A DNA stretch of 64,000 nucleotides, taken from positions 310,001-374,000 of the forward strand of contig BCGN01000006.1 of the NCBI GenBank assembly GCA_001599295.1. Direction: 5' to 3'. The translations under genes were made by a program, and so were the position numbers. Below the pieces are notes generated by a model, which did not search any database, was not told the DNA's origin, and was given only the letters and a program-made list of their open reading frames with translations. This document shows, piece after piece, positions 32,053-37,954 of this stretch. Each line of letters opens with the position of its first letter. The first letter of the stretch is position 1. This stretch comes from Sporopachydermia quercuum. Its lineage: Eukaryota; Ascomycota; Sporopachydermiomycetes; Sporopachydermiales; Sporopachydermiaceae.

Positions 32053-32739
32053 TTACTGTAGGCTGTTTAGGCTTCTTAATTTTTCAATCTCGAGTTCCAA
32101 TTGCCTATTTCTTTCTAGAAGTTCTTCAACTTTCTTTTCTAATTGTGTCATCCTGACCATTTTCCTTGCTCTCGACCTTCTGGCTGCTTCAGTGTTTCTT
32201 CTTCTTTTATCAACAGCTACATTTCCAGTCTCAATCAATGGCAAAAGGGAAGTAGCAGGACTTTTCCGTTGCTTCCTCCTATAAGATACACAGCCCAAGT
32301 GATCAACTTTAGCATCACCTAGTAGAAGCTCTTCAGATTCTGTAAAAGATTCTTTCTTAATTTCAATCTTTTCGACTTTCTTCTCCTCCGGAACAATACT
32401 AGTTGTGGTCTCGAGTCCAGTGAACAACGGTGTCCATTCCTCTGAAGGGGTCAATTCCACGTCAGTAATGAGTGGTGTGTCATTTAGTAAGCTGTCGGTG
32501 TACAACAATTCCATTGGAGAAACTGTACACGAATCGGGGGAGTTATCTAATGAAGGAACATCACTCATCTCAGGAGTTGGCATGAATAATTCTCCATATC
32601 CTTGAGACAAGTGAAATCCTTCGAAGATGGACTCACCCAAAATAGTATTAGTTCCATCAGCAGCAGCGTTCATTGTAGTAGTTTGGTTCATTTCGTTTAT
32701 TTCGTAACCAGTATTTTTGAACAAAATATTAATTTTCAT
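32053..32739 (-). CDS. GCN4: bZIP transcriptional activator Gcn4
   Basis: The product is 228 residues from ATG 32739, or 212 if translation starts at the in-frame ATG at 32691, which has a better context (GAA before ATG against TAT). The C-terminal bZIP contains R-N-T-E-A-A-R-R-S-R-A-R-K and a four-leucine zipper Q-L-E-K-K-V-E-E-L-L-E-R-N-R-Q-L-E, with the buried Asn of Gcn4. Upstream, the Gcn4-specific box V-D-H-L-G-C-V-S-Y-R-R-K-Q-R and the acidic activation motif E-E-W-T-P-L-F are present. The protein activates amino-acid biosynthesis genes through TGACTC sites on starvation. The leader contains nine upstream ORFs, implying eIF2/Gcn2-dependent translational control as in S. cerevisiae. Confidence 0.96.
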   Translation of the reverse strand: MKINILFKNTGYEINEMNQTTTMNAAADGTNTILGESIFEGFHLSQGYGELFMPTPEMSDVPSLDNSPDSCTVSPMELLYTDSLLNDTPLITDVELTPSEEWTPLFTGLETTTSIVPEEKKVEKIEIKKESFTESEELLLGDAKVDHLGCVSYRRKQRKSPATSLLPLIETGNVAVDKRRRNTEAARRSRARKMVRMTQLEKKVEELLERNRQLELEIEKLRSLNSLQ

Positions 32740-32776: not shown

Positions 32777-33056
32777 TTAATGAATGGCGACCATATTGGC
32801 GAGGCGACTTTGAAGTCTTGTATAATATTAAACACACATTTTTAAAAAGGGGGAACGAAGACAATCATGTCCTATAATTTTGGTTATAGTAGCATGGTTA
32901 AAAATTCTTAAACTTCAATCATTTTGAAATTAATCGTAGAATTCTCACTTAGCAGTTTGCATTGTAAAAATCACAACTGTTAGAGACAAATCAAACTCGT
33001 AGAGTACTTAATTTGACATTTTTTAGAAAAAACCCATAGGGAATTTAGCAAGCCAT
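32777..33056 (-). promoter_or_regulatory. array of nine uORFs in the GCN4 leader
   Basis: On the GCN4 strand every ATG in this stretch opens a 3-8 codon frame that closes before GCN4: 33056-33045 (MAC), 33037-33023 (MGFF), 33019-33008 (MSN), 32962-32945 (MQTAK), 32922-32908 (MIEV), 32895-32884 (MLL), 32868-32842 (MIVFVPPF), 32839-32828 (MCV) and 32794-32777 (MVAIH). The last stop is 37 bases before ATG 32739. S. cerevisiae GCN4 uses four such uORFs; here nine are visible. The transcript start is not known, so the outer ones could be untranscribed. Confidence 0.8.
33045..33056 (-). promoter_or_regulatory. uORF1-like Met-Ala-Cys-stop
   Basis: ATGGCTTGCTAA is identical to what I recall as the uORF1 coding sequence of S. 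cerevisiae GCN4 (Met-Ala-Cys), the reinitiation-permissive uORF. It is the most 5' of the array, 317 bases upstream of ATG 32739, close to the position of uORF1 in S. cerevisiae. Confidence 0.7.
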
Positions 33057-34719
33057 TTTGAATATATTCTTTTAATATGTCTCTTGTATTATAATTCTAT
33101 TGTGTCTTCTGAATGGGTTTAGTTGATCAATAGTATTCTCTTCGCTTTTATTTACCTGTAATTTTAACGATATGCAGGAAGAATGCCATTAAAGGGGAAT
33201 CCCATAGTTTTATATTTACTTGTTATCTTTTTTTTTCAGCAAACAGTTACTCCCTAAACCATGAAGAAAAAAAANNATTATTACCCGGAGCTTTTATTTA
33301 TTAATTAGGCAGGAGTTTCTAATAATAGTAAGAGCATCAACAACCCTAAAATAAAAATCAAGTATGGTATTTCTTATTTAGTATTTCAAGCGACAAACCA
33401 AAATTATCAACTGAAACAAGATGAAAATATGACTCATCAATAGTATGAGATTTACTCTGGTTTTATAGTAAATAGTTCTTACATTTACTATTGAATATCA
33501 GTCTTGAGTTAATTCTTTGCTTCCTGGAAAATTTGTGAACTGAAACACTTTATGGTTGAAGACAGAAGCCTCAAAAACACATTTCTGCGTGTGCCCAAGA
33601 AAATGTGTCATCATCTATGCATGTAAGAATATATGGTATATTTCTTTGTGGCTACTTCACAAATGCCCAACATAAGGCTCCTTCAAGCTGCATTGTTTGT
33701 TCTTTTGATTGTTTATATGCTCGTTCAAACTAGTAGATATATGTGCCATCAATTCTATTTAGTCACTATTTGCTATTACATCTCGATAAACCGGTCTTTA
33801 GTTTTTTTTCGTATTATAATTAATTATAACTGATTTATATTATCAGATTTCTGGTATCTCTGCTCTAGCTTTTACAGATAATCTGTAAGAAACTACACTA
33901 AACAATAAAAAAAAATGGAAAAAAAAAATCATCTGAATTAATGATAGCATAATCTGATTTTCCTCAGGTTATAATTAGAACAAACGCGTCGCGCTGCAAA
34001 AACTAAGCATATAATACTGTTCATGAAATCTTCATTGTCTATTAAAGAACTGAACTCCTGATGCGTCTAATCCTTATAGTAAGGTCAAAATAGTGATTGT
34101 GACAATTTAAGTCTCAGTTTCAATATTGGAAGTAAGTGTGGCATTGACTTCTATGCATTAGAAATGAGCTTATCTTGCTCGATAAACAAGTGTACTGATT
34201 CACTCAGTTAGGTCCTCCATGAAATAGTGATGCGCAATACAGAATAGACATAAATTATAATTATAATAGTAAAACAATAAAACAATGATAATAACATGCT
34301 TTTTTCCCTAAGAACTGTATTTATTATCGATAATAATTATAATTTTCATCTACTCAAACGCGTTTCCCCAGTAATTCACATCCAATCTCCTCTCATTACA
34401 CTTCAAGTAGCCATTCCGTTCTTCCCACAATAAATTTACCTGAAACGAGTTGCTGGGTTTAAGTTACTTCTTAACATAGTTACTCTCAACTCAACAGATC
34501 AACGCTCTGTTCAGTTGTTTTTGGTTATAGAAGAGAAATCGTGTTTTTTTTTCCTGGATAGATCCATTACCTCTACAATTTCTATCAATTGCAAGGCTTC
34601 TTCTATATAGCTTTGAAAATCTACCATATAATTTCTCTACAGAAGACAAGGATCATTTGACCTATCTTTATCACATTTCTCTGATCTGGAAATCATTATA
34701 CAAACACTGATCAATCATA

Positions 34720-37306: not shown

Positions 37307-37954
37307 TCACTCTTGTGATTTATCGATTTTAGTACGGTTTTCTATCACTTTATCCACTATGCCATACTCAACAGCTTCTTCAGCACTTAAAAATCGATCT
37401 CTTTCCAGTAAATCGTGTACTTCTTCTATCGTTAAACCCTTCATCATATGACTTAAATATATGTTATTGAGCCTATGTTTCATATCAATAATATGCTTAG
37501 CATGAATTTCAATATCAGTTGCTTGTCCTTGATATCCTCCGCTCGGTTGGTGTACCATAACTGAAGCGTTTGGCAAAATCATACGTTTACCAGCTGTACC
37601 ACTAGCTAACAACAGTGATCCCATTGAACATGCTTGTCCTAAACATACCGTACTAATATCATTGGATATATATTGCATAGTATCATAAATCGCCAGCCCT
37701 GAGGATACATTGCCTCCTGGTGAATTTATGTACATGTATATGTCTTTCTGTGGGTTGACTGATTCTAAGTACAGCAATTGAGCTGTAATGGAGGTTGTTG
37801 TTACATCATCGATTGGACCTGATAGGTATATTATCCTGTCCTTCAATAATCGTGAAAAAATATCATAAGAAGTTGAAAGCCCATTATGATTTTTATTCGC
37901 AAAAGATATTTTACTGAATTGTTTTGTGAATGGTCTTATGTTTCTTATTGACAT
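37307..37954 (-). CDS. CLPP: ClpP-type serine protease, probably mitochondrial
   Basis: The protein has 215 residues. The ClpP triad is intact: Ser110 in [10 protein letters not shown], His135 in V-M-V-H-Q-P-S-G-G and Asp186 in [11 protein letters not shown]. These positions closely match E. coli ClpP precursor. Also present are [13 protein letters not shown], for the oxyanion/strand region, and the handle helix M-K-H-R-L-N-N-I-Y. The first 25 residues are Arg/Lys/Ser/Phe-rich without acids, a mitochondrial presequence. ClpP forms a tetradecameric barrel with the ClpX unfoldase. S. cerevisiae and S. pombe lack it, so its presence in this yeast is notable. Start ATG 37954. Confidence 0.93.

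Follow-up and report, generated by a model that had tools for sequence, protein, structure and literature searches.

The 64,000-nt stretch of yeast DNA analysed here (the window) carries a GCN4-type gene on its minus strand, preceded by an array of nine short upstream open reading frames (uORFs; Table 1). The main ORF gives bZIP Pfam matches (bZIP_2, E = 1.7e-9), its top match among PDB sequences is Gcn4 (E = 1e-12), and its 103 relatives include GCN4-named proteins. Judged by sequence, it is the GCN4/CPC1 bZIP orthologue, and the identity proposed in the first-pass annotation is borne out by the Pfam and PDB matches. An LGES-type motif found by pattern search lies at residue 34 here and between residues 3 and 56 in 10 of the 103 relatives. 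One other match was reported from the genome; it is a weak one with a different basic region, which we take to be MetR/Cys3-like. A search of viral contigs with the Gcn4 protein returned no relative; protein searches of this kind are blind to three-codon uORFs.

Table 1. Features of the GCN4 locus in window coordinates, with ATG positions and distances in nt relative to the first GCN4 ATG (32739).
Feature	Coordinates	Strand	Position	Length	Remarks
GCN4 ORF, C-terminal bZIP	32053..32739	minus		228 aa	first ATG with T at -3
Met17, possible alternative start	32689..32691	minus			in frame; G at -3
Met23, possible alternative start	32671..32673	minus			in frame; A at -3
uORF9 (MVAIH)	32777..32794	minus	-55	5 codons	last uORF; A at -3
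uORF8 (MCV)	32828..32839	minus	-100	3 codons	A at -3
uORF7 (MIVFVPPF)	32842..32868	minus	-129	8 codons	G at -3; sole proline-bearing uORF, not last
uORF6 (MLL)	32884..32895	minus	-156	3 codons	A at -3
uORF5 (MIEV)	32908..32922	minus	-183	4 codons	A at -3; TTCAAAATG common to uORF1
uORF4 (MQTAK)	32945..32962	minus	-223	5 codons	A at -3
uORF3 (MSN)	33008..33019	minus	-280	3 codons	A at -3; 25 nt past uORF1 stop
uORF2 (MGFF)	33023..33037	minus	-298	4 codons	C at -3; ATG 7 nt past uORF1 stop
uORF1 (Met-Ala-Cys), ATGGCTTGCTAA	33045..33056	minus	-317	3 codons	AAA context
Two further ATG frames	33148..33205	minus	-450 and -466	13 codons each	
TGAGTCA, Gcn4-type box	33430..33436		about -697		

The GCN4 frame extends only six codons upstream of its first ATG (234 vs. 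228 residues). T stands at -3 in 8 of 51 sampled genes, GCN4 counted; the first GCN4 ATG is weak, and the two in-frame ATGs downstream, at Met17 and Met23, have better context. The first-pass annotation had stressed the 37-nt gap between the uORF9 stop and the GCN4 ATG. A gap of that length is present up to 32739 and holds only if translation starts there; because the two better-context ATGs follow, it may not be the functional gap, which weakens the role given to it.

On the minus strand, each of the nine ATGs located up to 317 nt ahead of the GCN4 start opens a closed frame of three to eight codons, as the first-pass annotation had stated. Every frame ends ahead of the main ATG, without overlapping another uORF or the main ORF. 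A purine stands at -3 of eight of the nine (7 A, 1 G), and Pro is the last codon in none of uORFs 2–9 (0/8). Since more ATGs lie at -450 and -466, the number of uORFs in the mRNA depends on the transcript start. Within 1 kb upstream of GCN4, none of six 5′ splice hexamers tested for a leader intron was found, and the one TATA pattern tested was absent, so that the sequence speaks neither for nor against a promoter. Farther upstream lies TGAGTCA, which we take to be the consensus Gcn4 box, and GCN4 could possibly regulate itself through it; the window holds 14 TGASTCA sites, vs. 7.7 expected from base composition. Two N bases at 33275-33276, intergenic and upstream of the array, adjoin a plus-strand A-run.

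Transcript start choice is the substance of one alternative reading, in which a long, LUTI-like isoform bearing the nine uORFs would make little or no Gcn4 and a shorter isoform, beginning within the array or beyond it, would make the protein. A precedent exists in the long NDC80 isoform of S. cerevisiae, which also has nine uORFs but acts by isoform choice in meiosis, not in starvation (PMC9604717, in excerpt), and the presence of two better-context in-frame ATGs after a weak first one would suit such an arrangement. It predicts, however, neither a Met-Ala-Cys uORF1 at -317 nor nine strictly short, non-overlapping frames, and we consider it unlikely.

The number of ATGs is ordinary for such AT-rich DNA. 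When the leader was dinucleotide-shuffled 20,000 times, 31.6% of the shuffles had at least nine ATGs (mean 7.6 ATGs); so did 17% of 18,756 noncoding 317-nt windows, which overlap one another and exclude the GCN4 leader, and the upstream DNA of 6 genes in a sample of 50 that contained GCN4. The sampled genes all had free upstream DNA and came from ORFs of at least 200 residues, taken from the window and from 20 loci of 10 kb; of the 59 ORFs kept, 8 were then dropped for edges or Ns and 1 for an overlapping neighbour. The shortness and closure of all nine frames, in contrast, are far beyond chance: among stretches with at least nine ATGs, about 0.1% show both. At least nine ATGs with every frame closed and no longer than eight codons arose in 0.025% of shuffles, or 0.08% of those having at least nine ATGs. 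The same combination occurred in 3 of 3,236 noncoding windows with at least nine ATGs (3 among the 18,756 overlapping windows, GCN4 leader left out), all three at one place, and in 1 of the 50 sampled genes, namely GCN4 itself. In addition, A occupies -3 of seven of the nine upstream ATGs, compared with 31.8% of 1,275 intergenic ATGs in the window (P = 0.006).

These figures bear on the proposal that the ATGs are chance products of AT-rich upstream sequence, no more than uORF1 and one further uORF being functional. The ATG number agrees with it, and a near miss is offered by the condensin subunit 2 gene (L014:2343-5072, minus strand), whose 317 nt of upstream DNA contain eight ATG frames that are short and closed. 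The shortness and closure of the frames, the A enrichment at -3 and the uORF1 match speak against this proposal and make it improbable.

The outermost uORF appears, by sequence, to be the same as uORF1 of baker's yeast, as the first-pass annotation had held. The three-codon form, the Cys-TGC last codon and the TAA stop of that claim agree with published descriptions; the middle codon of S. cerevisiae uORF1 would be the same Ala codon as here. As excerpted, the literature gives S. cerevisiae uORF1 three codons ending in UGC-Cys (PMC11375166) and a UAA stop (PMC4027193), with Cys and Pro last codons conserved among S. cerevisiae-related species (PMC5972666). The similar distance to GCN4 that had been noted also holds, at 317 nt here against a published S. 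cerevisiae value of about 350 nt (PMC3201031, in excerpt). The 12-mer ATGGCTTGCTAA has 3 copies in the 16.4-Mb genome, vs. 1 for a reversed control pattern, and the other two copies sit inside ORFs; from a frequency of 3 per 2 × 16.4 Mb, its chance of falling in a 450-nt leader is about 4e-5. Our literature search found no publication that joins Met-Ala-Cys with GCN4 or that gives the Ala codon, and the 12-mer as a string only in one Silene paper.

In S. cerevisiae, an AU-rich motif reported as critical lies within the 12 nt that follow the uORF1 stop (PMC5972666, in excerpt); here, A/T makes up 6 of those 12 positions and 18 of the first 25. Folds computed for 84-nt and 129-nt stretches upstream of uORF1 did not exceed shuffles and contained no detectable RPE-like enhancer fold, and z was no lower than -1.3 across six stretches of the leader.

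Components of the known upstream pathway are encoded in the genome. A single 1876-aa open frame holds RWD and HGTP_anticodon2 matches, the portion of it that was read contains a kinase domain, and eIF2alpha retains SELSRRR, whose second Ser is residue 52 counting Met, i.e., Ser51. Judged from these domains and this motif, GCN2 and eIF2alpha Ser51 are present, and therefore so are the sensor and the target of the pathway.

Among the 120 relatives listed for eIF2alpha, the top two are longer proteins with 55–60% identity, one of them labelled turtle; next among the matches listed come Dipodascopsis, Tortispora and Lipomyces (73–75%) and Saccharomyces mikatae (73%), and because S. mikatae is equally near 73%, eIF2alpha places the species weakly. 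In a midpoint-rooted isocitrate lyase tree with 120 listed relatives, all of these lie at least 0.33 substitutions per site away. The species likely stands on a deep branch. At one CTG codon of isocitrate lyase, all 120 relatives among the matches listed have Leu, which argues against a reassigned CUG. A ClpP-type protease gene is present at 37307-37954 of this budding-yeast genome; S. cerevisiae is not known to have such a protease.

The leader shares with S. cerevisiae GCN4 its bZIP orthologue, a three-codon outer uORF ending in Cys-UGC and UAA, a comparable uORF1 distance, and Gcn2 with eIF2alpha Ser51. It differs in having nine uORFs instead of four and two extra in-frame GCN4 ATGs. Excerpts of the literature describe further differences: S. 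cerevisiae uORFs 3 and 4 end in a Pro codon, unlike any uORF here, such a Pro-ending inhibitory uORF being reported for S. cerevisiae relatives and not fungal-wide (PMC5972666), and the last uORF lies about 150 nt from GCN4 (PMC3201031), whereas the last uORF AUG is at -55 here. All hemiascomycetes are credited with at least three uORFs before GCN4, four being conserved after the genome duplication (PMC4027193, in excerpt).

Outside this group, N. crassa cpc-1 also has a three-codon uORF1 (PMC5972666, in excerpt), but it has two uORFs, the second spanning 35–70 codons across 100 Pezizomycotina, vs. nine of at most eight codons here, and the CPC1 frame is open far upstream, compared with six codons for GCN4. 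With an open frame of 234 vs. 228 residues and a longest uORF of eight codons, the leader is not of the Pezizomycotina cpc-1 type. No match to the arginine attenuator peptide uORF (PF08252) was obtained here, nor in the control genomes, and the absence is therefore uninformative. Dictyostelium bzpR has seven uORFs before an eIF2alpha-controlled bZIP gene, which the excerpt of PMC3293825 does not describe as a GCN4 orthologue. We found no published description of a nine-uORF GCN4 leader in a search that most subscription papers lay outside.

The C. albicans GCN4 orthologue is likewise preceded by several uORFs, but these number three, and one of them, uORF3, is by itself sufficient for regulation, which is proposed to work by leaky scanning (PMC5972666, in excerpt). 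By analogy, leaky scanning without reinitiation could operate here, with one inhibitory uORF, perhaps uORF9, being skipped more often upon eIF2alpha phosphorylation. The purine at -3 of eight of the nine upstream ATGs disfavours this scheme, as does the expectation that, with nine terminal uORFs recognised at 70–90% each, only 2e-5 to 1e-9 of ribosomes would pass; we regard it as quite improbable.

We instead favour, as the reading that probably applies, the leader of a GCN4 orthologue under Gcn2/eIF2alpha-dependent delayed reinitiation, in which uORF1 would be permissive and the remaining uORFs would form a redundant barrier. The leader probably represents a nine-uORF variant of this well-known switch in translation. 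What the sequence shows is the anatomy of the leader, its statistics and the presence of the pathway genes; that the array is transcribed, that its uORFs are translated, and that reinitiation and regulation take place are inferences. Scanning ribosomes would translate uORF1, and a share of the 40S subunits would remain on the mRNA. With plentiful ternary complex, these would rearm within tens of bases and be captured by a later uORF, most being lost. In starvation, some subunits would pass the later uORFs while still unarmed, rearm only beyond -55 and initiate at Met1, Met17 or Met23. uORFs 2 and 3 would catch early rearmers as well as ribosomes that skipped uORF1. The idea that these two uORFs are too near the uORF1 stop for rearming was dropped, being contradicted by the 32-nt data of PMC3201031 (in excerpt): after 32 nt, about 80% of ribosomes translate uORF4 under repressing conditions and about 20% under derepressing conditions. 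The many uORFs would amount to a redundant barrier that allows repression without perfect recognition of any one. Several features fit this reading less well, namely the 12 nt after the uORF1 stop, half of them G/C, the lack of an upstream fold exceeding shuffles, a last gap that is short unless a later ATG is used, and the ATGs at -450 and -466, which may or may not be in the mRNA, and because of them we hold delayed reinitiation as probable and no more firmly. The lack of a Pro-ending uORF, the chance-level ATG number and the low modelled output from Met1 alone likewise count against it.

The published probabilistic kinetic model (PMC3201031, in excerpt) was rebuilt with S. cerevisiae rates, whose use for the present leader is an assumption. 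The rebuilt model gave derepressed values of 48.0, 67.7, 13.9, and 18.4% for four constructs, in agreement with the excerpted predictions for all four (48.4, 68.3, 13.9, and 18.5%). For the natural S. cerevisiae spacing, the excerpt reports measured values of 27.9% derepressed and 2.81% repressed and predicted values of 18.5% and 0.012%. Because basal expression is so badly underrated (2.81% vs. 0.012%), the model's values for the fed state are much too low and are not trusted, and only comparisons between layouts were used.

With the present layout, the model predicts that 6–12% of post-uORF1 subunits would reach GCN4 in starvation and 0.001% in the fed state, the latter figure being unreliable. 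As a share of subunits finishing uORF1, starved output would be 6.5% with Met1 alone, compared with 18% for the S. cerevisiae layout, and 11.9% if Met1 were half recognised and Met17 and Met23 were used. At full AUG recognition, uORF9 alone would also give 11.9% in starvation, the output of the whole array, and the number of uORFs would then be redundant. At 50% recognition of the following upstream AUGs, the array would give 0.9% fed vs. 18.9% starved, and uORF9 alone 46.5% vs. 49.9%, i.e., no repression. In the model, the position of the last uORF would dominate, and the extra uORFs would compensate for imperfect AUG recognition. The first-pass annotation had read the excess of nine uORFs over four as a hint of a differently built switch. 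The count does exceed four; since the ATG number is at chance level and uORF9 alone suffices in the model at full recognition, it is not in itself evidence of a different switch.

A more far-reaching proposal, which we put forward as doubtful, is that uORF1 has been kept letter for letter in a deeply diverged budding yeast, while the few strong Pro-ending inhibitory uORFs of S. cerevisiae were replaced by a distributed barrier of many moderately recognised uORFs and the long final rearming stretch by three in-frame starts. If true, such a distributed-barrier GCN4 switch would be a different design, in which start choice is graded and N-terminal isoforms arise. Reinitiation control has its textbook case in GCN4, and this nine-uORF leader, whose uORF1 appears unchanged, would show which part of the switch evolution holds fixed (a permissive uORF1) and which parts are free (how many barrier uORFs there are, and their sequences). 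The leader would also offer a natural way to test whether, as the model claims, the switch is set by where the last uORF lies and not by how many uORFs there are.
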